Of a stretch of DNA of 64,000 bases, positions 21,305-54,239 are shown one piece after another. Every line of letters begins with the position of its first letter. Positions within the stretch are counted from its first letter, which is position 1. The notes below the pieces were generated by a model. That model saw only the letters and a program-made list of their open reading frames with translations, did not search any database and was not told the DNA's origin. Source of the DNA: Branchiostoma floridae (Eukaryota > Chordata > Leptocardii > Amphioxiformes > Branchiostomatidae); contig NC_049991.1 of assembly GCF_000003815.2 (NCBI RefSeq), forward strand, positions 7,868,976 to 7,932,975, read 5' to 3'. Both the position numbers and the translations under genes were made by a program.

Positions 21305-22302
21305 GGGTTACGCAGGGTTACATGGTTGTCCGGTTGTAAGCAACACCAAAACACCTAACGTCTAAGGCCTACTGCAACTACAAATGATCACTAAAAATCT
21401 GGGTTTTTTTAAACACAATAAAGAGACTATAACCCTAACCCATAATATGCACCTCCAAAATGCAAACATATCTCAAGAAAAACATTTCTACAGGCACTTT
21501 TGCCAATGATACCTAATCATTTTGAGTAGGCTGATACTGGGCGCTCTGCGCCTGTCCGGAAATACTGAAATTTGCCATATATTACCGACTCCGACTCCGG
21601 TCAGATTTGAGCTTTGACCTGGTATTACAGAAGTTTTGTTCCGGTCTTGCAGATTGGTTTGGGTACCATATTTGAGGGAAAAATTTGCCTCTGCCGGCTG
21701 AAGTCCTTCCCCAGCTTATGTTACTGTTTTAAGCCACCGGGGGAATCTGCTTGGAGATTACGCATTATACACAATTATAGAAACCTTTCACCACCCAAAT
21801 CATATGCGGCCTCAGAGTCGACACCTTCCGTGACCACGCAGCACATGTTATATCTGGCTGCCTCTCAAACAATGCCTTTTACCTCTCCTTCAACAAATTT
21901 ATCCGTACTATTTTATGTACCCGCGTCACGCATAAATGATCATAAATACTGTGTTCTGCTACCTCGAGGAGAGGCCTGACAGGCACATGCGGAAGCACAA
22001 TGTCTATTTTGACAACCGAGCCCTGGACCGTCAACATGTCTGTGACGTAAATATTGAGCGAAGAGCGGCCTAAAATGGATCCTATGCTACCTGGCCGAAG
22101 AAAACTCTACTCTATACATGACCATACATGGCGAACCGTTGGGCGCGTTCATCGATTTTTTTTCCACAAGGCCGCAATTTTTGCACAGAAAGAATTATCT
22201 TTATGTCCATTTCCACCCATCAACTGCCTTTGATATACAGCACCAAATAAAGCTCGCTAGATCTCAACCGTGAAGCCGCCCTGTTAGAAGGGTGTGCCAC
22301 AA
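21305..22302. repeat. Cassette copy A, left part
   Basis: This sequence recurs at 42044-43280 (copy D), 45756-46900 (copy B) and from 50529 (copy C, right part only). It opens with GGGTTACGCAGGGTTACATGG, directly joined to Sat-1. It holds a short CCCTAACCC stretch and a block (about 21780-22110) also present at 42955-43250 that may be a decayed coding remnant. It ends at GTGTGCCACAA, where the retrotransposon begins. No intact gene is visible. It behaves like part of a mobile or segmentally duplicated unit. Confidence 0.75.
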
Positions 22303-23859
22303 CATACCAGTCACATCAACAACACAAAAAACAAGGCCTACAAGGCACTCAAAGTAGTCAGCAGAGTGACTAATGCGATGAAGAACCCAAACCAGGAAGC
22401 GCACCTGTTGTTGTATCGAGCACTGATCAGACCGATATTAGAATATGGAGCGGAATGCACTATCATGGCGGGGAAGAAACAAGAAGATGCCTATGCACCC
22501 ATCCAGAGAAGGGCCCTACTGGCAGCAACAGGTTGCAAACAAAGAACTAGCACCGAAGCGCTAGAAGCACTAACTGGAACTATCCCTGTAGACATCCATC
22601 TCACATGTCGGCAAGCACAGGCATATTTAAGGCTCAGCACAAAACACACGGGCAACCCCATCTATGATACCATTACACATGAGTTGACAGAGGAAAGAAG
22701 AGGCACACCTGTACATCTACTTGCTACAAGATTCAAAGAGCTGAAAGGTGAGCTGGAAACTGAGACAGTCGATAAAGAATGCTACTTTGATGCTAGGTTA
22801 CCACCCTTCTCCATTGGAAGAATAACAGGGTCATTCACACCCAAAATGAACAACCAATGCAGCAAAGAGCAAGCGAAAGAAGAAATAGCACAGTTACTGC
22901 AAAGTATCAAGCAGACAAAGACAACCGTCGTCTTTACGGACGGATCGTCTCTAGGGAACCCAGGTCCGACAGGATGCTCGGCAGTGATCTACGAACATTG
23001 GGGCAGAACAGAACCATACACTGTCAAGAAGCCCGTAGCAGCAAAGTCAAACAACTATGAGGGGGAATTGCAGGGACTTCACCTGGCACTCAGCACACTG
23101 AGCAAGAGGGAAAGAAGTGAAGAGAGAGTGCTCATCTTATGTGACTGCAAGGCGGCAATAGAAAATGTCATCACCACTCACCAAGTAGATGCCTATAACG
23201 ATCTAGTTAACAACATAAGACAGAAACTGCACGAAATGAAGCAGAAGAGAGTCAACATTCAAATTGAATGGTGCCCAGGGCACATGGGAGTAGCAGGCAA
23301 TGAGCTAGCCGACGAACAAGCCAAACTTGCAGCTGAAGAGGCCAGAAACAGCAACATGAATACAGTGTGGACAAGACAACAAGCCCTCAAACACATAGAA
23401 AAACAAGCAGAAGAAAGATGGAAAAGAAGAAGCGAGCTACATACTACCAGCAAACACATGCAGAAGATAAATGTACAAATGAAGAAAAAATGCAAAGTAC
23501 TGGGACTGAGGTCAACCCAAATTGCAATAAACCAGCTGGTGAGTGGGCACACCTCACTCAACGCCTACAGAAACTGGATAGACGACACAGAGTCACCCAA
23601 CTGTGAAGCATGTGGGGAGAGAGAAAGCACAGAGCACTTCCTGTACTACTGCCCAAGGTATGAGAGCAGCAGACGCAGAATGTATAACGAGGTGGACAAC
23701 ATATACCAAGAACTCAGTACACGGGAGAAAGAGAGAAGGCTGGACATAGTGACGCTAGCAGGGATGAGAGAAGATCTGGGAGAAGAAACAAACAAAAAGA
23801 TGTACAAGGCATTCTCAAAGTATATAGAAGACACAGGGAGATTTGCCGGGGAGGACTAA
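22294..23859 (+). pseudogene. Non-LTR ORF2 fragment: RT C-terminus, RNase H, CCHC
   Basis: One open frame of about 520 codons encodes the C-terminal part of a retrotransposon ORF2. The first three codons are flanking DNA starting with GTG; the first in-frame ATG is at 22378, so this is a truncated frame and not an intact gene. Residues about 10-120 resemble the region after the RT core (RPILEYGAE). A type I RNase H domain follows at about 210-350: FTDGSS (D216), NNYEGEL (E258), LCDCKAA (D284) and PGHMGVAGNELADE (H330, D340). A CCHC-like knuckle (C437, C440, H448, C453) lies near the end. The RNase H domain points to the I/R1/Tad-like groups of non-LTR elements (family knowledge). The absence of stops indicates a recent insertion. 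Confidence 0.92.
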
Positions 23860-26437: not shown

Positions 26438-27296
26438 TATATTCCGCATATTGTACGATGAGCGCAGTAAATCGCAGCAAAATCGTAAGCAAAATCAGCC
26501 ATCGCAACGCATCGGATGATGTTCAAAAATTTTCCAGCGTCGTACGATTTTTCACTTGTGCCTCTTTTGAATAGCCGCCTGGCCGCTTTTGTGCTTCTTT
26601 AACCAAAAGAATGTGGACTTGGCTGTTGAATACCTTCCTATAATATCTTTAACTGTAAAAATAAATTTAAAAAGACCATGACAACAAGAGTATTACAATA
26701 AAATTTCAAATCAAGCGTGAGTACTGGTATGATTATCTCGGCCTGCTTGCCGGCTCTACGTGTCAGGCTCTTTCGAAGATCGTATCATGATATGCTATCA
26801 ACAAAAAGATGCCATCATACAAAAATCATATCATAAGCATTATATCATATATATTTCCGACTCATAGAGCCTGCCTTTATGTTCGAGTTGTCCCCATGAT
26901 TATTACGATTATGGTAAACTGGCCCAAGACCGACGAGAGCTTATATTTGATCTAATTATAACCTCACGTGCATGAAGCGATCAAACAATTGTCTGCATCA
27001 CCTGTGCGGGGCGCGCTGTTCTCTGGTTGCGACTGTGGCAGTTGCGCCTGATATATTTTCCCTTTTCGTCAATATCCACAATATCAGGGAAAACTGAAAC
27101 AATCACAACATGCTAACAATTCATAAATCTATAACCTCATCAGTAGACAAAAATTGCCGTAATAGATCTGATTATTTATCACATTTATTTAGCACTGAAA
27201 AGTATATAAAATAAATGTCGTGATAACTGAAAAAGATGTGATAAAGGATTTAGGTTTTTATATCACATTAATTCACCAAATAAGTGTTACTACAAT
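26438..27296. other. AT-rich intergenic stretch; degenerate foldback-like end
   Basis: No gene seen. From about 27177, fragments such as TTATCACATTTATTT and AAATAAATGTCGTGATAA resemble decayed units of the adjacent 70-bp repeat, so the true edge of the foldback element may lie here and not at 27297. Confidence 0.5.
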
Positions 27297-27298
27297 CT

Positions 27299-27670
27299 TC
27301 TTCTGGAGAATAAATGTGATAGCAACCCCTTTATCACATTTATTCTCCATAGAGAGAACCAGGATTCTTCTTCTGGAGAATAAATGTGATAGAAACCCCT
27401 TTATCACATTTATTCTCCATAGAGAGATCCTGAATTCTTCTTCTGGAGAATAAATGTGATAGCAACCCCTTTATCACATTTATTCTCCATAGAGAGAACC
27501 AGAATTCTTCTTCTGGAGAATAAATGTGATAGCAACCCCTTTATCACATTTATTCTCCATAGAGAGAGCCAGAATTCTTCTTCTGGAGAATAAATGTGAT
27601 AGCAACCCCTTTATCACATTTATTCTCCATAGAGAGAACCAGAATTCTTCTTCTGGAGAATAAATGTGAT
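27299..27670. repeat. Foldback left array, outer part (70-bp units)
   Basis: About five units; CTGGAGAATAAATG recurs at 27303, 27373 and 27443, fixing the 70-bp period. The array ends at GAATAAATGTGAT, which is repeated at 28922 beyond the inserted retrotransposon. Confidence 0.93.
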
Positions 27671-28921
27671 CATCATCAGTCACTGTGTTCTGCATCTATA
27701 GTCTGGAAAGTCCTATAGCTGCATTCAGTCTTTCTTCATCCTTTTCCATTGTTCCTTGCATCCTGCAAGCTTCCTTAGCTCCTGGAGTTTCTTTGCCGTT
27801 GTAGGAAAAGCTCGACCTCTGTGCTTTAGGTCTGCTTTCAGCAGGCTGAGCAGGTTGACACAGTGTCTTCCCTTGCGTGCCTTGAATCTATTTGAACCTA
27901 GTATGGCATATTCAAGGGCTTTTTGTGCAGGTGTGTCTTGTGGCATCCTGAGGATGTGTCCAAACATAGACCACCTTGCCTGCTCGGCTTTTTCGGAGAG
28001 AGGTATGGTGTTACAGATACGGTACAGGGTGTTGTTGGATACCATGCTTTTTGGCCATTGGAGACCTGTGATTGCACGCAGATGTTTCCTGTGGCAGACG
28101 TCTAACTTCTCTGTGACTGCCTTTGGTACTGCCCAGCTGTTGCAGTTATATAGCATGATGGACACACAGCATGCATTGTACAGCTGTAGCTTCTTTGCCA
28201 AAGGAATGCTGGATCTTCGGACCCAGATCTTGCAGAAGGATCTAAAAGCAATGTTGCCCATGATGCAGCGTGCTTCTACATCGGCAGAACTACAGAGGAG
28301 GGAACCCAGTATCTTACTTTTCCTCCATTCCTCTTCTCCCCGTTGTGGTTTGTCTGCCAGGTAGACATGTGTAAACTCTGTTTTACCTTCATTAACAAAC
28401 AGATTTGAGTCTCTTAGATTCTTTGCTGCCACAGGTAGGAGACTTTCTAGTGGATCTCTTTCCTCATCTAGAAAGTCCACGTCATCCGCATACTCCATTT
28501 CTAGGGGCATGCCTAGTGTAGAGACAGGTGGATTGGGTCTTGCAGAAGATTTCCGTACCGTTTCCAGTGCAGCTGCGAGGTAGCATGTGAACAACACTGG
28601 AGACAGGCTATCTCCTTGTGGTGATCCAATGGTCGTTTCAAAGTCTGCTGAATGGGTTGACTTGACGCGTACCTTCAGTTTGGTATCAGACAGCAGTAGC
28701 CTTACGAGTCTCAGTTCATCGTCATTGCATCCAGCTTGTTTTAACACTTCTAGGATTTTTGATCGTTTAATAGTGTCAAAGGCCCGGGACATGTCGATGC
28801 CCATTTTGTGAAAGTCCCAGTGTTTGGACATGACAACGGAGACGAGCATACGTTGGGCCCACACTATGTCTGCGCAGCTGCGACCCCTTTTAAATCCGCT
28901 CTGATATGGCCCGGTGAAGTT
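27671..28921 (-). mobile_element. 5'-truncated non-LTR retrotransposon inside the foldback array
   Basis: A 1251-bp insertion splits the 70-bp array. The 13-bp sequence GAATAAATGTGAT flanks it on both sides (27658-27670 and 28922-28934), a target-site duplication. On the minus strand the element ends in GATGATG, a short triplet tail. Its 5' side is truncated within the reverse transcriptase. Confidence 0.92.
27725..28921 (-). pseudogene. Non-LTR reverse transcriptase fragment
   Basis: About 398 codons run without a stop from the 5' truncation to TAA-type termination at 27725; the frame continues upstream into the 70-bp array but has no genuine start. Numbered from 28951, the RT core shows FKRGRSC (20-26), motif A GIDMSRAFD (51-59, D53), motif B GSPQGDSLSP (109-118) and the catalytic EYADD box (153-157). 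A C-terminal region with HLRAITG and FGHILRM follows, as in many non-LTR elements. No RNase H or endonuclease is present, so it is a different family from the 22303 element. The clade was not assigned. The fragment cannot move on its own. Confidence 0.9.
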
Positions 28922-29425
28922 GAATAAATGTGATAGCAACCCCTTTATCACATTTATTCTCCATAGAGAGAACCAGAATTCTTCTTCTGGAGAATAAATG
29001 TGATAGCAACCCCTTTATCACATTTATTCTCCATAGAGAGAACCAGAATTCTCCTTCTGGAGAATAAATGTGATAGCAACCCCTTTATCACATTTATTCT
29101 CCAAAGAGAGAACCAGAATCCTTCTTCTGGAGAATAAATGTGATAGCAACCCCTTTATCACATTTATTCTCCAAAGAGAGAACCAGAATTCTCCTTCTGG
29201 AGAATAAATGTGATAGCAACCCCTTTATCACATTTATTCTCCAAAGAGAGAACCATAATCCTTCTTCTGGAGAATAAATGTGATAGCAACCCCTTTATCA
29301 CATTTATTCTCCATAGAGAGATCCTGAATCCTTCTTCTGGAGAATAAATGTGATAGCAACCCTCTTATCACATTGATTCTCCAAAGACAGAACCAGGATC
29401 CTTCTTCTGGAGAATAAATGTGATA
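28922..29425. repeat. Foldback left array, inner part
   Basis: About seven 70-bp units continue in the same orientation as 27299-27670. Several share the variant CTCCAAAGAGAG instead of CTCCATAGAGAG, indicating local homogenisation. Confidence 0.93.
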
Positions 29426-30892
29426 AAGGCCTCTTCGTATCAGTTTGCGGTTAACGCCACTAGCTCGCAGCATGCAATCGTTTCCGGTTTTCGTCGTTGT
29501 GCGACGTCTCGATTCGTGATTTGCGCAAATTCCGTTCCGACTTAGAGTCCATTTAAAAAATCAAAGATAAAGACGGTTAGATCTCACCATTAACATCATT
29601 AACAACGTATGAGCTATGTATCACTTTAAGTCAGGCGTATTGCCTTCGTTAACTAGTGGCATAGTTATGAATGTCACTGCAAATCGTACTGTTGAGTAGC
29701 GCGTGTGAACTAATACAAGTATACCAATAGAAAGTGCATACCGTACTCGCCGAGGTAACCTTGTCAGGATGTTGCGGAAAGCACGTACGGAGACCAAGGT
29801 ACGGACACAATGACATGTGTAGTCTTTGCCAGTTAGTGGCAAACCCTTATCACATTAATTCTTCAAAGAGAGAACCAGGGTTCTTTCTGGAGAATTAATG
29901 TGCTAGTCCTGTGTTTCAGGTACAGTACTGCGCAAACCATAACTACATCTCGTCAGGTCTTAAACATCTCTGGAATAACAGTCCCGTGTTTCTGTTGAAT
30001 TTTTGAACACATCATGGATACAGCTCGTCTTGTTGTACACGTTTCTGGAACAACGACTTGCATATCTCGTCAACTTCTGCGTAGCAACATGTATCGGTAT
30101 TTTTCTCAGATTTTACCACAAAAAATGATAGGAAAATGCCTATTTACTTCAATTATTTGAAACGCTCTGGAAGACGACTGGTGACAAAGTGCCGTCTGTG
30201 AAACGGTGAAACTTCTGAATTCACCTTCCCACGTTTCACGTTCGCTTCCTCTCGCTGTGCATCGTCAGCAAATAAAATTTCCTTTCAGTTAGAATCTGAA
30301 GTTAACTGTGTTCCGACTCTATCGGGTATGTAAATTACCAAAATCTCCGTGGCCTACCCATCTGGATCCAATTCCATGGATCTGTGGGCCTGATGAGTTC
30401 GATGTCTGGATTCCGGGGTCGGTTCAGCTCGGCTAGGTTCGGACATGTTGTAAGAAGTGATTGCTTTCGTCTTTCGGAAGGGACGTAAGACGGGGTCCCA
30501 ACCTAAAACAACTACCTTGTCCCTACCTGGCCTGACGAACTCTAAGAGTTCTCTATGACAAAGTCAGATGGCTTTCCATGCCGATTTATGTTTTTGTTCC
30601 ATCCCGCGGAGTTGGGGGAGTACCCTGTGACGTCTTTTCCGGTCTCATGTTCGCAAAATAGGGGCGATTCGTCTGGACAAACCTCAGCTCTGGAGAAAAC
30701 TTATACAGTTTCCCCCACAGTCAGGACGTTGTATAACCAACAGACAGTGTATGTACGTAACATTCATAAAGTTTCTCCCCAAATCAAGGACAATATATTA
30801 CACCCAAATGTAACGTGTGTGGTGTTTAATTCCGGTAACGATTGCATGCTGCGAGCTAGTGACGTTAACCGCTAACTGATACGAAGAGGCCT
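29426..30892. other. Central loop of the foldback element
   Basis: About 1.47 kb of non-repetitive DNA lies between the two arms. Its outer about 65 bp on each side are near-perfect inverted copies (CCTCTTCGTATCAGTT, then AGCTCGCAGCATGCAATCG). A single decayed pair of array-like half-sites (TTATCACATTAATTC, GAATTAATGTGCTAG) sits at about 29848-29912. No reading frame with a recognisable product was found. Confidence 0.7.
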
Positions 30893-31834
30893 TTATCACA
30901 TTTATTCTCCAGAAGGAGAATCCTGGTTCTCTCTATGGAGAATAAATGTGATAAATGGGTTGCTATCACATTTATTCTCCAGAAGAAGAATCTTGGTTCT
31001 CTCTATGGAGAATAAATGTGATAAAGGGGTTGCTATCACATTTATTCTCCAGAAGAAGAGTCTTTGTTCTCTCTATGGAGAATAAATGTGATAAAGGGGT
31101 TGCTATCACATTTATTCTCCAGAAGAAAGTTTCAGGATCTCTCTATGGAGAATAAATGTGATAAAGGGGTTGCTATCACATTTATTCTCCAGAAGAAGAA
31201 TCTTGCAATTGGTTCTCTCTATGGAGAATGAATGTGATAAAGGGGTTGCTATCACATTTATTCTCCAGAAGAAGAATTCAGGATCTCTCTATGGAGAATA
31301 AATGTGATAAAGGGGTTGCTATCACATTTATTCTCCAGAAGAAGAATCCTGGTTCTCTCTATGGAGAATAAATGTGATAAAGGGGTTGCTATCACATTTA
31401 TTCTCCAGAAGAAGAATTCAGGTTCTCTCTATGGAGAATAAATGTGATAAAGGGGTTGCTATCACATTTATTCTCCAGAAGAAGAATTCAGGATCTCTCT
31501 ATGGAGAATAAATGTGATAAAGGGGTTGCTATCACATTTATTCTCCAGAAGAAGAATCTTGGTTCTCTCTATGGAGAATAAATGTGATAAAGGGGTTGCT
31601 ATCGCATTTATTCTCCAGAAGAAGAATCCTGGTTCTCTCTATGGAGAATAAATGTGATAAAGGGGTTGCTATCACATTTATTCTCCAGAAGAAGAATCCT
31701 GGTTCTCTCTATGGAGAATAAATGTGATAAAGGGGTTGCTATCACATTTATTCTCCAGAAGAAGAATCTTGGTTCTCTCTATGGAGAATAAATGTGATAA
31801 AGGGGTTGCTATCACATTTATTCTCCAGAAGAAT
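30893..31834. repeat. Foldback right array (inverted 70-bp units)
   Basis: About 13.5 units in the opposite orientation to the left arm. One unit near 31199 carries a small insertion (CTTGCAATTGG). The array then breaks off into unrelated sequence. Confidence 0.93.
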
Positions 31835-31962
31835 GAAAATCCTTGTTGGCGAAAAAATGAGACAAAGGTTTACTCATCACTATCACATATTTTGTAATTA
31901 TCAAGCTTTTCATGAGAAATACTTTTTTGAGCTAAAAGAATGAGATAAATAGCTAACTCTGT

Positions 31963-32087
31963 AGAAAGTGATTTGAGTACCCAAAATTACTTTGTAACTT
32001 TTCTATATACGAATGAAGGCTCACCTGGGGGACAACCGCTAACCGCTAAGCGAACCCTTCGGTAACCGCAAAAAAGCGACCGATAAC
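31963..32087. repeat. Isolated Sat-1 fragment
   Basis: A partial Sat-1 unit, from GTAGAAAGTGATTTGAG to AAAAAAGCGACC. Its GGGGGACAACCGC and AAAGCGACC variants match the subfamily at 43281-45755 and not the main array. Confidence 0.88.
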
Positions 32088-32851
32088 CGCCTGTTGTTCT
32101 TAATTAGAGGCTGGTGGAAGGGTTCCCTGGCACGTGTCGTGGTTAATGACCCGTGGTGTTAAAAGTTAGACGCACGGGAAAAATTCATGCCCTGCTTTCC
32201 AGAAGAGCGGCCTAGAAGATTGTTTATGACATAATCCAATTAGCTGACGTTACTGTTAGATTCTCTGTTATGTTCATAACAGCAAACGTAATAGTAGGAT
32301 ATGGTGGGAGCCTGCTGTTCTTAATTCGTGGTGTTAGAAGTTAGACGCCCAGGAAAAGTGCTTGTCATATATGTTTTCCCGAGACCAGCGGCCAGTGTGC
32401 TTCAGGACTTTGCTGAACTTTACTTGTGACATGTGCAGCCATGAGGAATGCTCCTGCAGTCCAGGTGCGCTTGCGACCTAGGAGAAGATTGTTTTTGACA
32501 TAATCCAATTAGGTGACATTACGGCCACAATCCTTTGTGTACTTAACCTCGTTGTTCAATTCCCAATTGAAACCATGGTGTACAGTACGATTACTTACTA
32601 TATTTGAGTTCTACTAGAGATATGTCGGGATATTCCTTAATTAATTTTATCCCCAATGGAGATATAAAAGGATACATGTCGGTAATTCTCCTAAATGGTT
32701 GCCTGACCCATCTAAATTGTTTTTCTAGAGGTTATTCTACCTGAGCCATGTGTTTTCCCTGATCCATGTCGATCCTTTTTTTTTGCTGTTAGATTTTCTG
32801 TTAGGTTCTTAAATGCCCTATGTTCTGCTAGGTCCATTACCTTGCCACTAC
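32088..32851. other. Intergenic, with a diverged direct repeat
   Basis: Two diverged copies of a roughly 160-200 bp block occur at about 32090-32255 and 32310-32515. Both contain a TTGTTCTTAATT-like start, a GTTAGACGC block and GACATAATCCAATTAG. No gene seen. Confidence 0.55.
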
Positions 32852-35800
32852 TCACCGGGTAGGGGGTGACTTAATGACGCGACTGTAGCTTAGACTTTAG
32901 GTTCCGGCCCGGCAAACTTGGTATGGTTGGAAAGGTTGCATAGCAAGGAATCAAAATGTGCAAACCGCAAAATATTCGGATACTTCCTTCTCGAGATATT
33001 CTTAAGTATACGGGCTCTCTTCAGGCGCAACCGCTAGCTCTTCTTCTAAACACCGCCGGTCACGGCACCGGGTTGGGGTTGACTTAATAAAGCGACTGTA
33101 GCTTAGACTTAAAGTTCCGGCCCGGCAAACTTGGTATGGTTGGAAAGGTTGCATAGCAAGGAATCGAAAGGTGCAAACCGCAAAATATTCGGATACTTCC
33201 TTCTCGAGATATTCTTGAGTATACGGGCTCTCTTTCGGCGCAACCGCTAGCCCCTTCTTCTAAGCACCGCCGGTCACGGCACCGGATAGGGGATGACTTA
33301 ATGACGCGACTGTAGCTTAGACTTTAAGTTCCGGCCCGGCAAACTTGGTATGGTTGGAAAGGTTGCATAGCAAGGAATGGAAAGGTGCAAACCGCAAAAT
33401 ATTCGGATACTTCCTTCTCGAGATATTCTTGAGTATACGGGCTCTCTTCAGGCGCAACCGCTAGCTCTTCTTCTAAACACCGCCGGTCACGGCACCGGGT
33501 TGGGGTTGACTTAATAAAGCGACTGTAGCTTAGACTTTAAGTTGCGGCCCGGCAAACTTGGTATGGTTGGAAAGGTTGCATAGCAAGGAATCGAAAGGTG
33601 CAAACCGCAAAATATTCGGATACTTCCTTCTCGAGATATTCTTGAGTATACGGGCTCTGTTTAGGCGCAACCGCTAGCCCCTTCTTCTAAACACCGTCGG
33701 TCACGGCACCGGGTAGGGTTGACTTAATGAAGCGACTGTAGCTTAGGCTTTAAGTTCCGGCCCCGCAAACTTGCTATGGTTGGAAAGGGTTGCATAGCAA
33801 GGAAACAAAGGTGCAAACCGCAAAATATTCGGATACTTCCTTCTCGAGATATTCTTGAGTATACGGGCTCTCTTTAGGCGCAACCGCTAGCCCCTCTCNN
33901 NNNNNNNNNNNNNNNNNNNNNNNNNNNNNNNNNNNNNNNNNNNNNNNNNNNNNNNNNNNNNNNNNNNNNNNNNNNNNNNNNNNNNNNNNNNNNNNNNNTG
34001 ACTTAATGACGCGACTGTAGCTTAGACTTTAAGTCCCGGCCCGGCAAACTTGTTATGGTTCGAAAGGTTGCATAGCAAGGAATCGAAAGGTGCAAACCGC
34101 AAAATATTTGGATACTTCCTTCACGAGATATTCTTGAGTATACGGGCTCTGTTTAGGCGCAACCGCTAGCCCCTTCTTCTAAACACCGCCGGTCACGGCA
34201 CCGGGTAGGAATGACTTAATGAAGCGACTGTAGCTTAGGCTTTAAGTTCCGGCCCCGCAAACTTGTTATGGTTGAAAAGGTTGCATAGCAAGGAAACAAA
34301 AGGTGCAAACCGCAAAATATTCGAATACTTCCTTCTCGAGATATTCTTGAGTATACGGGCTCTCTTTAGGCGCAACCGCTAGCTCTTCTCCTAATTACCG
34401 CCGGTCACGGCACCGAGTAGGAATGACTTAATGACGCGACTATAGCTTAGGCTTTAAATTCCGGCCCGGCAAACTTGGTATGGTTGGAAAGGTTGCATAG
34501 CAAGGAATGGAAAGGTGCAAACCGCAAAATATTCGGATACTGCCTTCTCGAGATATTCTTGAGTATACGGGCTCTGTTTAGGCGCAACCGCTAGCCCCTT
34601 CTTCTAAACAACGACCGGTCACGGCACCGGCTATGGGGTGACTTAATGACGCGACTGTAGCTTAGACTTTAAGTTCGGACTCGACAAACTTGGTATGGTT
34701 GGAAAGGTTGCATAGCAAGGAATCGAAAGGTGCAAACCGCAAAATATTCGGATACTTCCTTCTCGAGATATTCTTGAGTATACGGGCTCTCTTTCGGCGC
34801 AACCGCTAGCCCCTTCTTCTAAGCACCGCCGGTCACGGCACCGGATAGGGGGTGACTTAATGACGCGACTGTAGCTTAGACTTTAAGTTCCGGCCCGGCA
34901 AACTTGGTATGGTTGGAAAGGTTGCATAGCAAGGAATCGAAAGGTGCAAACCGCAAAATATTCGGATACTTCCTTCTCGAGATATTCTTGAGTATACGGG
35001 CTCTCTTTAGGCGCAACCGCTAGCCCCATCTTCTAAACACCGCCGGTCACGGCACCGGCTAGGGGGTGATTTAATGACGCGACTGTAGCTTAGACTTTAA
35101 GTTTCGGCCCGGCGAACTTGGTATGGTTGGAAAGGTTGCATAGCAAGGAATCGAAAAGTGCAAACCGCAAAATATTCGGATACTTCCTTCTCGAGATATT
35201 CTTGAGTATACGGGCTCTGTTTAGGCGCAACCGCTAGCCCCTTCTCCTAAACACCGCCGGTCACGGCACCGGGTAGCGGGCGACTTAATGACGCGACTGT
35301 AGCTTAGACTTTAAGTTCCGGGCCGGCAAACTTGGTATGGTTGGAAAGGTTGCATAGCAAGGAATCGAAAGGTGCAAACCGCAAAATATTCGGATACTGC
35401 CTTCTCCAGATATTCTTGAGTATACGGGCTCTCTTTAGGCGCAACCGCTAGCCCCTTCTTCTAAACAACGACCGGTCACGGCACCGGCTATGGGGTGACT
35501 TAATGACGCGACTGTAGCTTAGACTTTAAGTTCGGACTCGACAAACTTGGTATGGTTGGAAAGGTTGCATAGCAAGGAATCGAAAGGTGCAAACCGCAAA
35601 ATATTCGGATACTTCCTTCTCGAGATATTCTGGAGTATACGGGCTCTCTTTCGGCGCAACCGCTAGCCCCTTCTCCTAAACACCGCCGGTCACGGCACCG
35701 GGTAGGGGGTGACTTAATGACGCGACTGTAGCTTAGACTTTAAGTTCCGGCCCGGTAAACTTGGTATGGTTGGAAAGGTTGCATAGCAAGGAATCGAAAG

Positions 35801-38800
35801 GTGCAAACCGCAAAATATTCGGATACTTCCTTCTCGAGATATTCTTGAGTATACGGGCTCTCTTTAGGCGCAACCGCTAGCCCCTTCTTCTAAACACCGC
35901 CGGTCACGGCACCGGCTAGGGGGTGATTTAATGACGCGACTGTAGCTTAGACTTTAAGTTCCGGGCTTGCGAACTTGGTATGGTTGGAAAGGTTGCATAG
36001 CAAGGAATCGAAAAGTGCAAACCGCAAAATATTCGGATACTTCCTTCTCGAGATATTCTTGAGTATACGGGCTCTGTTTAGGCGCAACCGCTAGCCCCTT
36101 CTCCTAAACACCGCCGGTCACGGCACCGGGTAGGGGATGACTTAATGACGCGACTGTAGCTTAGACTTTAAGTTCCGGCCCGGCAAACTTGGTATGGTTG
36201 GAAAGGTTGCATAGCAAGGAATCGAAAGGTGCAAACCGCAAAATATTCGGATACTTCCTTCTCGAGATATTCTTGAGTATACGGGCTCTGTTTAGGCGCA
36301 ACCGCTAGCCCCTTCTCCTAAACACCGCCGGTCACGGCACCGGTTAGTGGTGATTTAATGACGCCACTGGAGCTTAAACTTTAAGTTCCGGCCCGGCAAA
36401 TTTGGTATGGTAGGAAAGATTGCATAGCAAGGAATCGAAAGGTGCAAACCGCAAAATATTCCGATACTTCCTTCTCGAGATTTTCTTGAGTATACCGGCT
36501 CTGTTTAGGCGCAACCGCTAGCCCCTTCTCCTAAACACCACCGGTCACGGCACCGTGTAGGGGGTGACTTAATGACGCGACTGTAGCTTAGACTTTAAGT
36601 TCCGGGCCGGTAAACTTGGTATGGTTGGAAAGGTTGCATAGCAAGGAATCGAAAGGTGCAAACCGCAAAATATTCGGATACTTCCTTCTCGAGATATTCT
36701 TGAGTATACGGGCTCTCTTTAGGCGCAACCGCTAGCCCCTTCTTCTAAACACCGCCGGTCACGGCACCGGCTAGGGGGTGATTTAATGACGCGACTGTAG
36801 CTTAGACTTTAAGTTCCGGGCTTGCGAACTTGGTATGGTTGGAAAGGTTGCATAGCAAGGAATCGAAAAGTGCAAACCGCAAAATATTCGGATACTTCCT
36901 TCTCGAGATATTCTTGAGTATACGGGCTCTGTTTAGGCGCAACCGCTAGCCCCTTCTCCTAAACACCGCCGGTCACGGCACCGGGTAGCGGGCGACTTAA
37001 TGACGCGACTGTAGCTTAGACTTTAAGTTCTGGGCCGGCAAACTTGGTATGGTTGGAAAGGTTGCATAGCAAGGAATGGAAAGGTGCAAACCGCAAAATA
37101 TTCGGATACTGCCTTCTCGAGATATTCTTGAGTATACGGGCTCTGTTTAGGCGCAACCGCTAGCCCCTTCTTCTAAACAACGACCGGTCACGGCACCGGC
37201 TATGGGGTGACTTAATGACGCGACTGTAGCTTAGACTTTAAGTTCGGACTCGACAAACTTGGTATGGTTGAAAAGGTTGCATAGCAAGGAATGGAAAGGT
37301 GCAAACCGCAAAATATTCGGATACTTCCTTCTCGNNNNNNNNNNNNNNNNNNNNNNNNNNNNNNNNNNNNNNNNNNNNNNNNNNNNNNNNNNNNNNNNNN
37401 NNNNNNNNNNNNNNNNNNNNNNNNNNNNNNNNNNNNNNNNNNNNNNNNNNNNNNNNNNNNNNNNNNNNNNNNNNNNNNNNNNNNNNNNNNNNNNNNNNNN
37501 NNNNNNNNNNNNNNNNNNNNNNNNNNNNNNNNNNNNNNNNNNNNNNNNNNNNNNNNNNNNNNNNNNNNNNNNNNNNNNNNNNNNNNNNNNNNNNNNNNNN
37601 NNNNNNNNNNNNNNNNNNNNNNNNNNNNNNNNNNNNNNNNNNNNNNNNNNNNNNNNNNNNNNNNNNNNNNNNNNNNNNNNNNNNNNNNNNNNNNNNNNNN
37701 NNNNNNNNNNNNNNNNNNNNNNNNNNNNNNNNNNNNNNNNNNNNNNNNNNNNNNNNNNNNNNNNNNNNNNNNNNNNNNNNNNNNNNNNNNNNNNNNNNNN
37801 NNNNNNNNNNNNNNNNNNNNNNNNNNNNNNNNNNNNNNNNNNNNNNNNNNNNNNNNNNTGACGCGACTGTAGCTTAGACTTTAAGTTCCGGCCCGGCAAA
37901 CTTGGTATGGTTGGAAAGGTTGCATAGCAAGGAATCGAAAGGTGCAAACCGCAAAATATTCGGATACTTCCTTCTCGAGATATTCTTGAGTATACGGGCT
38001 CTCTTTAGGCGCAACCGCTAGCCCCATCTTCTAAACACCGCCGGTCACGGCACCGGCTAGGGGGTGATTTAATGACGCGACTGTAGCTTAGACTTTAAGT
38101 TTCGGCCCGGCGAACTTGGTATGGTTGGAAAGGTTGCATAGCAAGGAATCGAAAAGTGCAAACCGCAAAATATTCGGATACTTCCTTCTCGAGATATTCT
38201 TGAGTATACGGGCTCTGTTTAGGCGCAACCGCTAGCCCCTTCTCCTAAACACCGCCGGTCACGGCACCGGGTAGCGGGCGACTTAATGACGCGACTGTAG
38301 CTTAGACGTTAAGTTCCGGGCCGGCAAACTTGGTATGGTTGGAAAGGTTGCATAGCAAGGAATCGAAAGGTGCAAACCGCAAAATATTCGGATACTGCCT
38401 TCTCCAGATATTCTTGAGTATACGGGCTCTCTTTAGGCGCAACCGCTAGCCCCTTCTTCTAAACAACGACCGGTCACGGCACCGGCTATGGGGTGACTTA
38501 ATGACGCGACTGTAGCTTAGACTTTAAGTTCGGACTCGACAAACTTGGTATGGNNNNNNNNNNNNNNNNNNNNNNNNNNNNNNNNNNNNNNNNNNNNNNN
38601 NNNNNNNNNNNNNNNNNNNNNNNNNNNNNNNNNNNNNNNNNNNNNNNNNNNNNNNNNNNNNNNNNNNNNNNNNNNNNNNNNNNNNNNNNNNNNNNNNNNN
38701 NNNNNNNNNNNNNNNNNNNNNNNNNNNNNNNNNNNNNNNNNNNNNNNNNNNNNNNNNNNNNNNNNNNNNNNNNNNNNNNNNNNNNNNNNNNNNNNNNNNN

Positions 38801-41800
38801 NNNNNNNNNNNNNNNNNNTCGGATACTTCCTTCTTGAGATATTCTTGAGTATACGGGCTCTCTTTAGGCGCAACCGCTAGCCCCTTCTTCTAAACACCGC
38901 CGGTCACGGCACCGGGTAGGGGTTGACTTAATGACGCGACTGTAGCTTAGGCTTTAAGTTCCGGCCCCGCAAACTTGGTATGGTTGGAAAGGTTGCATAG
39001 CAAGGAATCGAAAGGTGCAAACCGCAAAATATTCGGATACTTCCTTCTCGAGATATTCTTGAGTATACGGGCTCTGTTAAGGCGCAACGGCTAGCCCCTT
39101 CTCCTAAACACCGCCGGTCACGGCACCGGTTAGGGTTGACTTAATGACGCGACTGTAGCTTAGACTTTAAGTTCCGGCCCGGCAAACTTGGTATGGTTGG
39201 AAAGGTTGCATAGCAAGGAATCGAAAGGTGCGAACCGCAAAATATTCGGATACTTCCTTCTCGAGATATTCTTGAGTATACGGGCTCTGTTTAGGCGCAA
39301 CCGCTAGCCCCTTCTTCTAAACACCGCCGGTCACGGCACCGGGTAGGGTTGACTTAATGAAGCGACTGTAGCTTAGGTTTTAAGTTCCGGCCCCGCAAAC
39401 TTGATATGGTTGAAAAGGGTGCATAGCAAGGAATCATAAGGTGCAAACCGCAAAATATTCGGATACTTCCTTCTCGAGATATTCTTGAGTATACGGGCTC
39501 TCTTCAGGCGCAACCGCTAGCCCCTTCTCCTAAACACCGCCGGTCACGGCACCGGGTAGCGGGCGACTTAATGACGCGACTGTAGCTTAGACTTTAAGTT
39601 CTGGGCCGGCAAACTTGGTATGGTAGGAAAGGTTGCATAGCAAGGAATCGAAAGGTGCAAACCGCAAAATATTCGGATGCTTCCTTCTCGAGATATTCTT
39701 GAGTATACGGGCTCTGTTTAGGCGCAACCGCTAGCCCCTTCTCCTAAACACCACCGGTCACGGCACCGTGTAGGGGGTGACTTAATGACGCGACTGTAGC
39801 TTAGACTTTAAGTTCCGGCCCGGCAAACTTGGTATGGTTGGAAAGGTTGCATAGCAAGGAATCGAAAGGTGCAAACCGCAAAATATTCGGATACTTCCTT
39901 CTCGAGATATTCTTGAGTATACAGGCTCTGTTTAGGCGCAACCGCTAGCCCCTTCTCCTAAACACCACCGGTCACGGCACCGGGTAGGGGGTGACTTAAT
40001 GACGCGACTGTAGCTTAGACTTTAAGTTCCGGCCCGGCAAACTTGGTATGGTTGGAAAGGTTGCATAGCAAGGAATCGAAAGGTGCAAACCGCAAAATAT
40101 TCGGATACTTCCTTCTCGAGATATTCTTGAGTATACGGGCTCTGTTTAGGCGCAACCGCTAGCCACTTCTCCTAAACACCGCCGGTCACGGCACCGGGTA
40201 GGGGGTGACTTAATGACGCGACTGTAGCTTAGACTTTAAGTTCCGGCCCGGCAAACTTGGTATGGTTGGAAAGGTTGCATAGCAAGGAATCGAAAGGTGC
40301 AAACCGCAAAATATTCGGATACTTCCTTCTCGAGATATTCTTGAGTATACGGGCTCTCTTTAGGCGCAACCGCTAGCCCCTTCTCCTAAACACCGCCGGT
40401 CACGGCACCGGGTAGCGGGTAACTTAATGACGCGACTGTAGCTTAGACTTTAAGTTCCGGGCCGGCAAACTTGGTATGGTTGGAAAGGTTGCATAGCAAG
40501 GAATCGAAAGGTGCAAACCGCAAAATATTCGGATACTTCCTTCTCGAGATATTCTTCAGTATACGGGCTCTGTTAAGGCGCAACGGCTAGCCCCTTCTCC
40601 TAAACACCGCCGGTCACGGCACCGGTTAGGGTTGACTTAATGACGCGACTGTAGCTTAGACTTTAAGTTCCGGCCCGGCAAACTTGGTATGGTTGGAAAG
40701 GTTGCATAGCAAGGAATCGAAAGGTGCAAACCGCAAAATATTCGGATACTTCCTTCTCGAGATATTCTTGAGTATACGGGCTCTGTTTAGGCGCAACCGC
40801 TAGCCCCTTCTCCTAAACACCGCCGGTCACGGCACCGGGTAGAGGGTGACTTAATGACGCGACTGTAACTTAGACTTTAAGTTCCGGCCCGGCAAACTTG
40901 GTATGGTTGGAAAGGTTGCGTAGCAAGGAATCGAAAGGTGCAAACCGCAAAATATTCGGATACTTCCTTCTCGAGATATTCTTGAGTATACGGGCTCTGT
41001 TTAGGCGCAACCGCTAGCCCCTTCTTCTAAACACCGCCGGTAACGGCACCGGCTAGGGGGTGACTTAATGAGGCGACTGTAGCTTAGACTTGAAGTTCCG
41101 GCCCGGCAAACTTGGTATGGTTGGAAAGATTGCATAGCAAGGAATCGAATGGTGCAAACCGCAAAATATTCGGATACTTCCTTCTCGAGATATTCTTGAG
41201 TATACGGGCTCTGTTTAGGCGCAACCGCTAGCCCCTTCTCCTAAACACCGCCAGTCACGACACCGGGTAGGGGGTGACTTAATGACGCGACTGTAGCTTA
41301 GACTTTAAGTTCCGACTCGACAAACTTGGTATGGATGGAAAGGTTGCATAGCAAGGAATCGAAAGGTGCAAACCGCAAAATATTCGGATACTTCCTTCTC
41401 GAGATATTCTTGAGTATACGGGCTCTGTTTAGGCGCAACCGCTAGCCCCTTCTCCTTAACACCGCCGGTCACGGCACCGGCGAGGGGGTGACTTAATGAC
41501 GCGACTGTAGCTTAGACTTTAAGTTCCGACTCAACAAACTTGGTATGGTTGGAAAGGTTGCATAGCAAGGAATCGAAAGGTGCAAACCGCAAAATATTCG
41601 GATACTTCCTTCTCGAGATATTCTTGAGTATACGGGCTCTCTTTAGGCGCAACCGCTAGCCCCTTCTTCTAAACACCGCCGGTCACGGCACCGGGTAGGG
41701 TTGACTTAATGAAGCGACTGTAGCTTAGACTTTAAGTTCCGGCCCGGCAAACTTGGTATGGTTGGAAAGGTTGAATAGCAAGGAATCGAAAGGCGCAACC

Positions 41801-41860
41801 CGAAAAATATTCGGATACTTCCTTCTCGAGATATTTTTGAGTATACGGGCTCTGTTTAGG
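32852..41860. repeat. Sat-2 satellite array, 214-bp unit
   Basis: About 42 head-to-tail units. The landmark GGATACTTCC recurs at 213-214 bp intervals (ATACTT at 39891, 40105 and 40319). Each unit carries GACGCGACTGTAGCTTAG, GTTGCATAGCAAGGAATCG, a CTCGAGATATTC block and, in many units, a short inverted repeat CCGGT-CACGGC-ACCGG. N gaps fall at 33899-33998, 37335-37858 and 38554-38818. Subtypes recur in order (GTTCGGACTCGACAAAC units; GGGCTTGCGAAC units), so a higher-order arrangement exists. Reading frames in the array are incidental. Confidence 0.97.
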
Positions 41861-42043
41861 GGATAACCGCTAATCGCTAAGCGAACCCTTCGGTAACCGC
41901 AAAAAAGCGACCCCTTACATTTGGACTTCCGAAATTTCAAACAAAGTGTGCGTTACTTTCAATACTAGTACTTGAGTATCATAGTAAGACATGTGGGCAA
42001 ACGGTAGAAAGTGACTTGAGTACCCAAAATTACTTTGTAACTT
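41861..42043. repeat. Single Sat-1 unit fused to Sat-2
   Basis: Sat-2 breaks after CTCTGTTTAGG and continues as GGATAACCGCTAA of Sat-1. Both satellites have an AACCGCTA core at the corresponding place, so the junction lies beside microhomology. The unit then joins cassette D at CTTCTGGGCAGGGTTACG. Confidence 0.9.
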
Positions 42044-43280: not shown

Positions 43281-45755
43281 ACATGTGGGCAAACGGTAGA
43301 AAGTGATTTGAGTACCCAAAATTACTTTGTAACTTTTCTACATACGAATGAAGGCTCACCTGGGGGACAACCGCTAACCGCTAAGCGAACCCTTAGGTAA
43401 CCGCAAAAAAGCGACCCCTTACAGTTGGACTTCCGAAATTTCAAACAAAGTGTGCGTTACTTTCAACACTTGAATACCATTGTAAGACATGTGGGCAAAC
43501 GGTAGAAAGTGATTTGAGTACCCAAAATTACTTTCTAACTTTTCTACATAAGAATAAAGGCTAACCTGGGGGATAACCGCTAAGGCTAAGCGAACCCTTA
43601 GGTAACCGCAAAGCAAATCCATAAGTACGATTGAACTTTTGGAATTTCAAACAAAGTGTGCGTTACTTTCAACACTTGAATATCATAGTAAAACCCGTGG
43701 ACAGAGGTAAGATAGTGATTTGTGTACCCCAAATTACTTTGTAACTTTTCTACATACGAATGAAGGCTCACCTGGGGGACAACCGCTAACCGCTAAGCGA
43801 ACCCTTCGGTAACCGCAAAAAAGCGACCCCTTACAGTTATACTTCCTAAATTTCAAAGTGTGCGTTACTTTCAACACTTGATAACCATTGTAAGACATGT
43901 GGGCAAACGATAGAAAGTGATTTGAGTACCCAAAATTACTTTGTAACTTTTCTACATACGAATGAAGGCTCACCTGGGGGACAACCGCTAACCGCTAAGC
44001 GAACCCTTAGGTAACCGCAAAAAAGCGACCCCTTACAGTTGGACTTCCGAAAAGTGTGCGTTACTTTCAACACTTGAATACCATTGTAAGACATGTGGGC
44101 AAACGGTAGAAAGTGATTTGAGTACCCAAAATTACTTTCTAACTTTTCTACATAAGAATAAAGGCTAACCTGGGGGATAACCGCTAAGGCTAAGCGAACC
44201 CTTAGGTAACCGCAAAGCAAATCCATAAGTACGATTGAACTTTTGGAATTTCAAACAAAGTGTGCGTTACTTTCAACACTTGAATATCATAATAAAACCT
44301 GTGGGCTGTGAGTTGTGTACCCAACATTACTTTGTAACTTTTCTACATACGAATGAAGGCTCACCTTGGGGACAACCGCTAACCGCTAAGCGAACCCTTC
44401 GGTAACCGCAAAAAAGCGACCCCTTACAGTTGGACTTCCGAAATTTCAAACAAAGTGTGCGTTACTTTCAACACTTGAATACCATTGTAAGACATGTGGG
44501 CAAACGGTAGAAAGTGATTAGAGTACCCAAAATTACTTGGTAACTTTTCTACATACGAATGAAGGCTCACCTGGGGGACAACCGCTAACCGCTAGGCGAA
44601 CCCTTCGGTAACCGCAAAAAAGCGACCCCTTACAGTTGGACTTCCGAAATTTCAAACAAAGTGTGCGTTACTTTCAACACTTGAATACCATTGTAAGACA
44701 TGTGGGCAAACGGTAGAAAGTGATTTGAGTACCCAAAATTACTTTGTCACTTTTCTGCATACGAATGAAGGCTCACCTGGGGGACAACCACTAACCGCTA
44801 GGCGAACCCTTCGGTAACCGCAAAAAAGCGACCCCCTACAGTTGGACTTCCTAAATTTCAAACAAAGTGTGCGTTACTTTCAACACTTGAATACCATTGT
44901 AAGACTTGTGGGCAAACGGTAGAAAGTGATTTGAGTACCCAAAATTATTTTGTAACCTTTCTACATACGAATGAAGGCTCACCTGGGGGACAACCGCTAA
45001 CCGCTAAAAGCTAAGCGAAGGCTGCCGTAACTGCAAAAAAGCGACCCCTTACAGTTGGACTTCCGAAATTTCAAACAAAGTGTGCGTTACTTTCAACACT
45101 TTAATACCATTGTAAGACATGTGGGCAAACGGTAGAAAGTGATTTGAGTACCCAAAATTACTTTGTAACTTTTCTGCATACGAATGAAGGCTCACCTGGA
45201 CGACAACCGCTAACCGCTAGGCGAACCCTTCGTTAACCGCAAAAAAGCGACCCCCTACAGTTGGACTTCCGAAATTTCAAACAAAGTGTGCGTTACTTTC
45301 AACACTTGAATACCATTGTAAGACATGTGTAAGACATGTGGGCAAACGGTAGAAAGTGATTTGAGTACCCAAAATTACTTTGTAACTTTTCTACATACGA
45401 ATGAAGGCTCACCTGGGGGACAACCGCTAACCGCTAGGCGAACCCTTCGGTAACCGCAAAAAAGCGACCCCTTACAGTTGGACTTCCGAAATTTCAAACA
45501 AAGTGTGCGTTACTTTCAACACTTGAATACCATTGTAAGACATGTGGGCAAACGGAAGAAAGTGATTTGAGTACCCAAAATTACTTTGTAACTTTTCTAC
45601 ATACGAATGAAGGCTCACCTGGGGGACAACCGCTAACCGCTAAGCGAACCCTTCGGTAACCGCAAAAAAGCGACCCCTTACAGTTGGACTTCCGAAATTT
45701 CAAACAAAGTGTGCGTTACTTTCAACACTTGAATATCATAGTAAGACATGTGGGC
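43281..45755. repeat. Sat-1 array, variant subfamily
   Basis: About 12 units carry shared variants: AAAGTGTGCG, GGGGGACAACCGC, AAAGCGACCCC and GAATACCATTGTAAG. A 12-bp duplication (GTAAGACATGTG) occurs at about 45318. Some units hold CCTTAGGTAACC and a shortened block before AAGTACGATTGAAC; these pair up as a two-unit repeat (43,42x-43,73x against 44,03x-44,34x). The last unit passes into cassette B at the same base as the main array passes into A. Confidence 0.95.
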
Positions 45756-46900
45756 AGGGTTACGCAGGCTTACATGGTTGTCCGGCCTCGAAAAAGTAAT
45801 TTGACGACAAAAAAGGATAAATTGTATGGCGGAATTCTATCATATGTCATCAAAACATAGGTGGTGGCCTTTTCACCCCTTTTCACTGCCTGTAAGCAAC
45901 ACCAAAACACCTAACGTACTAAGGCCTACTGCAACTACAAATATCACTAAAAATCTGGGGGGGGGGGGTCAACACAATATACAGACTATAACCCATACCC
46001 ATAATATGTACCTCCAAAATGCAAACATATCTCAAGAAAAACATTTCTACAGGCACTTTTGCCAATGGTACCTAATCATTTTGACACTGGGTGCTCTGCG
46101 CCTGTCCGGAAATACTGAAATTTGCCCTATCATGACCATACATGGCGAACCGTTGGGCGCGTTCATCGATTTTTTTTTCACAAGGCCGCAATTTTTGCAC
46201 AGAAAGAATTATCTTTATGTCCATTTCCACCCATCAACTGCCTGTGATATACAGCACCAAATAAAGCTAGCTAGATCTCAACCGTGAAGCCGCCCTGTTA
46301 GAAAGGTGTGCAACAAACATTGCCTATAGAACGGGCTGGATATTTTTTAAGAGACTTGGCTACATCGACTAGACCATTACATAACTTTTTACATTGTTCC
46401 TAAACGCAATTTATGAACTGGAAAACACACGCACAAAAAACAACAACAACACGGAATTCGCGGAAAACGTCCACCATTTTGATCGTAATTCTCAGCTAAT
46501 ATTTGACAGTCTATCAATCAGAGATTTTTTTGCCAACCCACGGCATGTATAGTCTTATTTTGAAGCTGCTATGTAGTATTTACATGGCTGAAAACTTTTT
46601 TAATCTTGGAAACGGCCGAAAATTCATGCGCGCACGGATGTCATATATCAACATGGCCTAGCGTTAGCTAGCTAGCGTTTATTTGTAGCGCATGTGTTAT
46701 TAACAATGAATGTTAACGGCCCATTCATACCTGTATTTAACAAATTGTAACGAGGAAGCCACCTACCTTAGGCATGTGTGTACCACCAGGCGACCAGTCC
46801 CACAATCTTCCGTAGAATATCCCCGCGCAGAATCCCTTGTTATTGTTGTGGTCCTTGTTTAACGTTTAAATCTCCGCTCGACGTGGGCACATGGTGTTTC
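45756..46900. repeat. Cassette copy B
   Basis: This matches copy A's left part and continues into its right part without the 22303 retrotransposon, so it gives an empty site at about 46310. It lacks the A segment from about 21570 to 22110 and has a run of 12 G at about 45958. Its end includes the CAA-tail side of the reverse retrotransposon remnant (from 46837). It loses similarity after CATGGTGTTTC. Confidence 0.85.
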
Positions 46901-53785: not shown

Positions 53786-54140
53786 TCATTACCTTCGCCA
53801 AGGTTATGTTTCCGGTTGCGCCATGGTAGAGCAGCTGTGGTGTGGGTGTGTATGCAGTTCAACAGCAAAAATCGAGAATTGATCAGCCTGCAAACGTTTA
53901 GCTTTCTCTTTGTTGTTACCTCGATGAAATGTCATGGAGGTTATATTTTCAGTAGCGTTTGTGTGTGTGTGTCTGTCTGTCTGTGAACAAGATACCTCAA
54001 GAACAGCTGGATGGATTGGTTTCATACTTGGTGCGTTGGTGGGGGTGTGATGAAAGCTGGAAATATTAGATTTGGGGCCTCCTAGCGGCTTCCCTTGGTA
54101 CTGCAGCGCAACTTCCGGTTTGGCTATCTTATGTTCTGAA
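53786..54140. repeat. Probable interspersed repeat upstream of the LRR gene
   Basis: The block runs from CTTCGCCAAGGTTATG through a GT/CTGT microsatellite (53961-53984) and AACAGCTGGATGGATTGG. Its composition resembles repeats dispersed in marine invertebrate genomes (recollection, not verified). It has only one copy in the window. It lies within 100 bp of the LRR gene's splice acceptor. Confidence 0.4.
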
Positions 54141-54239
54141 CAGGCTATGGTCACGAATTTTAGAGTGTTAGATATAGCTCTTGTGCTCAATATTGACATA
54201 TTCGTTGTTCTTTGTAACTACAGGCGCACCAGTAGCAGC

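Follow-up and report, generated by a model that had tools for sequence, protein, structure and literature searches.

A probable family of foldback-like DNA transposons with palindromic 70-bp units in the amphioxus Branchiostoma floridae

The stretch analysed here, referred to as the window, consists of 64,000 nucleotides of the Branchiostoma floridae genome (contig NC_049991.1, positions 7,868,976 to 7,932,975) and contains a 70-bp unit in two arrays of opposite orientation that flank a loop. This feature is very probably one copy of a young, non-autonomous, foldback-like family of cut-and-paste DNA transposons, because copies of it are dispersed in the genome and exact 8-bp target duplications are present at 10 of the 13 loci that have both end segments of the element.

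Copies, target duplications and layout of the element

A genome search with the 70-bp unit, as proposed in the first-pass annotation of the window, gives 416 matches in the 513,431,437-bp assembly (431 contigs), and this locus is therefore not the only one. The left and right end segments give 40 and 37 matches respectively, and the terminal 34-mer gives 75 matches with at most two mismatches, compared with none for a reversed control. Thirteen loci (L009-L021) were picked from the best 150 of the 416 unit matches. The arm-loop-arm layout of the window, sought at these loci, is found together with both ends at L010, L011, L012, L013, L014 and L018. L009, L015, L016 and L017 are partial copies, and L019, L020 and L021 carry few units. 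A short member of the family, L031, is about 390 bp long and has both ends and about 1.6 units. The loops of five copies differ pairwise by just 0.69-1.64%, indicating that the copies are recent.

Target duplications were examined by comparing the 8 bases that precede the left end with the bases that follow the right end, at 13 loci of two subfamilies for which both end segments are found. The exact duplications are as follows.

L010: AGATTTCG
L011: AATTTCCC
L012: CACAGAGA
L013: AGGTACGA
L014: CTTTAACA
L031: ATGTAATG
L033: ATTAGACT
L034: AGAAATGT
L046: CTTCAGGC
L056: TTTTTTTT (of low information and given little weight)

The first-pass annotation saw no transposase in the feature and likened it to foldback elements, a reading borne out by the dispersion of the copies, by their terminal inverted repeats and by the target duplications of 8 bp. 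The middle region lies between long terminal inverted repeats that contain tandem repeats, the number of units varies from 3 to 22 per arm at eight loci, and the ends are shared by dispersed copies with target duplications.

Tandem Repeats Finder (TRF) detects 70-bp arrays at 27296-27670 (5.4 copies), 28922-29425 (7.2 copies) and 30894-31833 (13.3 copies) of the window, the third of which is inverted relative to the other two according to an inverted-repeat search. Two inverted arrays of about 12 and 13 copies around a 1.47-kb loop are thus seen, as had been described. The ends of the element were set by the loss of match at 13 other loci and by the 8-bp duplications there. Because similarity to other loci continues for 140 bp outside the left array and 127 bp outside the right one before it stops, the element is assigned to 27164-31960. 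The interval first proposed, 27297-31834, is correct for the arrays, but the full element reaches beyond both of them. Likewise, the 12.5 copies proposed for the left array are correct in number but not continuous, being split into two pieces by a 1251-bp fragment of a long interspersed nuclear element (LINE). The parts of the element are as follows.

27164..31960, unstranded: whole element, 4797 bp, or about 3.5 kb once the later LINE insertion is subtracted
27164..27303, plus strand: left end segment (LF), beginning AGATCTGATTATTTATCAC, its outer part being the terminal inverted repeat
27305..27670, plus strand: left array, outer piece, 5 full units and a partial one
27671..28921, minus strand: LINE fragment, 1251 bp, not part of the element, splitting the left array, with an open reading frame (ORF) at 27725-28951 (minus strand)
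28922..29412, plus strand: left array, inner piece, 7 units
29413..29487, plus strand: inner inverted repeat, left copy, about 75 bp, 96% identical to the complement of 30832-30906
29426..30893, unstranded: loop, 1468 bp, without recognisable coding sequence
29840..29915, unstranded: single diverged unit within the loop
30832..30906, minus strand: inner inverted repeat, right copy, bordering the loop
30911..31826, minus strand: right array, about 13 inverted units
31834..31960, plus strand: right end segment (RF), ending ATAAATAGCTAACTCT

LF is 89-99% identical at other loci. For the inner repeat of L009, a mismatch count of 48 of 62 stems from a displaced cut and is disregarded. The terminal inverted repeat has the form AGA...TCT and is imperfect, extending over about 71 bp (LF 10-80 against the complement of RF 48-118, 73% identity). 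The ORF of the LINE fragment encodes a reverse transcriptase (Pfam RVT_1, E 2.5e-18), and the fragment has a 13-bp direct duplication of unit sequence at its two borders (27658-27670 and 28922-28934); it is a LINE insertion later than the array. The half-site ATCACATTTATT or its complement, with at most one mismatch, occurs 29 and 27 times within the 4.8-kb element, compared with once and zero times in the remaining 59.2 kb of the window.

Other subfamilies have arrays of their own: A2 (L046, L047 and L056), and B and C (L050, L052 and L054), the units of the latter two being 70-72 bp long and differing from those of subfamily A in their outer sequence. At L047, a large relative with an internal duplication, positions 79-2464 comprise a left end, an array, an inner repeat, an array and an inner repeat. 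A relative of about 25 kb lies at C1:2.37 Mb and has 14,908 N in the 20 kb read. The subfamily C array of L052 (about 4795-5586) reaches a galactose-3-O-sulfotransferase-like ORF. At L054, a 1088-aa reverse-transcriptase ORF (RVT_1) with a poly-A tail is inserted within the subfamily C array (1589-4852), and the duplication at this LINE insertion is ordinary-looking. L050 holds another LINE fragment, so that three loci (the window, L050 and L054) have different LINE fragments inside or beside their arrays. A targeting of the arrays by LINEs was considered and not retained as a reading.

The palindromic unit and the evolution of the arms

Within the unit, two perfectly complementary 17-bp arms enclose a loop of 10 nt, which confirms the hairpin with 17-bp arms recognised in the first-pass annotation. 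The folding energy of the unit as single-stranded DNA is -16.5 kcal/mol, and none of 200 shuffled sequences folds as well. The core TGTGATA-N9/10-TATCACA is common to all subfamilies, and TGTGATA-N10-TATCACA is nearly unchanged across four subfamilies, while the outer stem varies. One C-type unit has a core altered on both sides (TGTGTTA/TAACACA). In an alignment of eight units, 97.8% of the stem cells pair, two-sided changes occur in 5 of the 17 pairs, and the covariation score is 0.277, compared with 0.111 for shuffled units and at most 0.048 with slid partners; these eight units were hand-picked for diversity, and related rows inflate such counts.

Variation in subfamily A was counted on the 196 units of length 70 among 222. 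The numbers of substitutions per site are 0.012 and 0.018 for the two arms of the unit, 0.082 for the spacer and 0.045 for the loop. Seven changes are two-sided, all complementary and six of them at one position, and 85 are one-sided. At one stem position, the change is one-sided in about 17% of the 196 units and two-sided in 6 units. The excess of two-sided changes in this subfamily is weak (6 against 2.6 expected when distinct sequences are counted, five of them at one position). The conservation of the stem fits both constraint on a paired half-site and repair by template switching.

It is possible, though we favour it less, that the element is a transposon but that its palindromes are a mutational by-product and not selected binding sites; template switching during replication would copy one arm of a quasi-palindrome onto the other, and unequal exchange would then spread the outcome. 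In the available portions of PMC8604942 and PMC8794818, template switching is reported to homogenise the arms of inverted repeats and to keep hairpins through paired substitutions, and the stem position of subfamily A with one-sided and two-sided forms shows such intermediate steps. However, the low substitution rate of the stem is expected of constraint, and the core is nearly constant in the four subfamilies where the outer stem is not. One-sided changes also greatly outnumber two-sided ones in subfamily A, indicating that repair, if it acts, is not instant. In the diverged subfamilies, changes on one side of the stem are accompanied by changes on the other, which raises the doubtful prospect that recognition depends on the folded hairpin or on the symmetry of a dimer site, with selection holding the stem together through the shape or symmetry of the DNA rather than its letters. 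If so, the arms would amount to extensive arrays of structural sites recognised by a transposase or a host factor.

Eight loci have both arms, with the following numbers of units on the left and right: 12/13 (window), 8/7, 18/14, 11/22, 10/13, 13/3, 13/6 and 8/12. In the first-pass annotation, the near-equal arms of the window were attributed to coupled amplification or to gene conversion between them. This explanation is not supported, because the counts of the two arms are uncorrelated over the eight loci (r = 0.02), and the near-equality in the window is most readily attributed to chance. The order of unit variants gives mixed evidence on coupled amplification, but favours the inheritance of each arm as such. 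When inside-aligned, the left arm of the window differs from the left arms of L010, L009, L011 and L012 by 1.75, 1.88, 2.0 and 2.4 differences per unit respectively, and from its own right arm by 3.83. Averaged over all pairs, the inside-aligned value is 5.26 for the two arms of the same copy, and 5.08 (left-left), 5.43 (left-right) and 4.50 (right-right) between different copies. The mean differences per unit for all 222 units from 11 copies are 4.44 within an arm, 4.77 between the arms of one copy as compared with a slightly higher 5.11 between the same arms of different copies, and 5.34 between opposite arms of different copies. The variant order favours, on balance, arms that were mostly inherited as blocks, and some exchange between the arms within copies may also have occurred. 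Higher-order periods of 139 and 208 bp in the arms of related copies point to block duplication.

Putative binding sites, the transposase and the window copy

The half-site TGTGATA/TATCACA is present twice, in inverted orientation, in every unit. It is also present in exact form in the left terminal repeat (27178) and in weaker forms in the right end, suggesting that the arrays are multiplied recognition sites. A transposase supplied in trans would act on the ends of the element, and the half-site may be its binding site, in which case the arms would be amplified arrays of paired sites. Each arm would lengthen and shorten independently by local block duplication and unequal exchange, and recombination between copies would generate chimeric copies, of which the window copy is possibly one. 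As described in the available part of PMC3688188, the tandem repeats of Galileo contain binding sites for the THAP domain of its transposase.

The window copy has intact ends but unmatched flanks, GCCGTAAT on the left and GTAGAAAG on the right. The right flanking sequence opens a 121-bp fragment of the 206-bp satellite of the window, and the left flank (26438-27163) has no other match within the window. Judged from these flanks, the copy may be a recombinant between two elements; the accessible text of PMC3573991 describes flanking sequences that likewise do not match in chimeric Galileo copies derived from two different parents.

Target duplications are usually 8-11 bp for MULE, 7-8 bp for the P superfamily, and about 8 bp for Merlin and KDZ; hAT elements have 8-bp duplications and ends beginning with C/TA. 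The 8-bp duplication of the present family fits MULE and hAT, but its AGA..TCT ends do not fit hAT. Three ORFs of the window loop give no Pfam match, and ten loop ORFs scanned give sub-threshold Pfam matches only. No ORF of at least 150 aa is present in the loops of subfamilies A and A2 once LINE insertions and N runs are set aside, and no autonomous partner is found among the larger and distant relatives L046-L056.

Several observations weigh against the assignment to a transposon family, or against a recombinant origin of the window copy. No transposase of the five superfamilies checked is found by position near the ends of the family. MULE (PF10551) has 27 genome matches, the nearest of which is 529 kb from the ends compared, and P-type transposase (PF21787) has 3, the nearest at 1.7 Mb. 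For hAT (PF05699), 31 of the 33 matches listed were compared, and the nearest is 125 kb from the ends. Inspected by eye, the 12 KDZ (Zisupton) and 3 Merlin-type matches include none near the listed ends. Exact duplications are lacking at 3 of the 13 loci: at the window copy; at L021, which has an altered left end; and at L018, where AAATATCT is present on both sides but offset by 3 bp from the left end. Within the stretch fetched, a duplication is present at only one of seven B and C loci, namely L051 (401 bp, subfamily B; CTGTATTA on both sides), and the left-flank 8-mers of L049, L050 and L052-L055 are not found downstream within the 6 kb fetched. Finally, the reciprocal product of the proposed recombination is not found among the flanks seen.

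The remaining explanations are far less probable than a transposon. A simple inverted duplication of a minisatellite, that is, a segmental duplication and not a mobile element, would be in keeping with the tandem arrays and with the 206- and 214-bp satellites nearby, but it is refuted for the family, whose dispersed copies have exactly the same boundaries and are flanked by duplications of 8 bp. A Helitron or HINE-type element may carry internal tandem repeats and short palindromes. However, Helitrons are not known to make target duplications, and they have no terminal inverted repeats, while the present family has both, with 8-bp duplications at its two ends; such an origin is hardly credible. 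Misassembly, in which the right array would be a mis-inverted copy of the left, might be suspected from the ten N runs of the window and the many gaps in the assembly, but is very unlikely because 26438-33898 contains no N run and other loci show the same layout with different numbers of copies; the series of unit variants also differs between the two arms.

The window has other features outside the element. The 206-bp satellite lies at 1-21304 and 43281-45756, broken by N runs and other sequence, and a second satellite of 213-214 bp lies at 32853-41872 with about 5 and 37 copies. A 521-aa ORF at 22294-23859 (plus strand) has an RNase H domain (PF00075) and lies in a stretch with a strong excess of A over T, and a 723-aa ORF of leucine-rich repeats is located at 54072-56243 (plus strand).

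Related elements and significance

No published description of the family, nor any link between foldback elements and amphioxus, is found in the literature searched, with Repbase and the literature on amphioxus miniature inverted-repeat transposable elements (MITEs) lying outside that search. The suggestion in the first-pass annotation that the family is undescribed is therefore unproven. The FB elements of Drosophila melanogaster have long inverted repeats of tandem repeats around a loop; their duplications are 9 bp long, and their repeats are shorter than the 70-bp unit of the present family.

Tetris and Galileo of Drosophila appear to be the structurally closest parallels. Tetris of Drosophila virilis, the nearer of the two in build as presented in the available portion of PMC4079207, similarly has an outer domain, variable tandem repeats, an inner domain and a non-coding middle. 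Its repeat numbers are unequal, its tandem unit partly resembles the outer domain, a short MITE-like relative is present and no autonomous copy has been found. Its target duplications are 8-10 bp long, as compared with 8 bp in amphioxus. The likeness considered here is one of structure. However, the Tetris unit is about 220 bp long, and that portion of the source mentions no palindromic unit. Galileo, a member of the P superfamily, resembles the present family, according to the available parts of PMC3573991 and PMC3688188, in its long inverted repeats, in tandem repeats that vary independently in each arm and in chimeric copies with non-matching flanks; binding sites within the tandem repeats are described for Galileo. 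It differs in its 7-bp duplications and in having a known P-type transposase. The Tm1 Mutator/foldback elements of root-knot nematodes (PMC3169594, available part) share composite inverted repeats, variable short tandem repeats and MITE-like members, but have mostly 9-bp duplications, 14-bp repeats and members that bear a transposase.

The most unusual property of the present family is that its unit stays palindromic in diverged subfamilies while its letters change, and this palindromic unit, kept through paired changes, gives the family its special value. Why the ends of foldback elements amplify tandem repeats is in question, and Galileo suggests that the repeats provide extra transposase-binding sites. 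With arrays of about 1.6 to 22 units and diverged subfamilies, the amphioxus family offers a natural test series in which symmetry, spacing and number of sites could be separated. It is also suited to asking whether template switching alone can keep palindromes perfect, and its long, near-identical inverted arms are likely sites of rearrangement.

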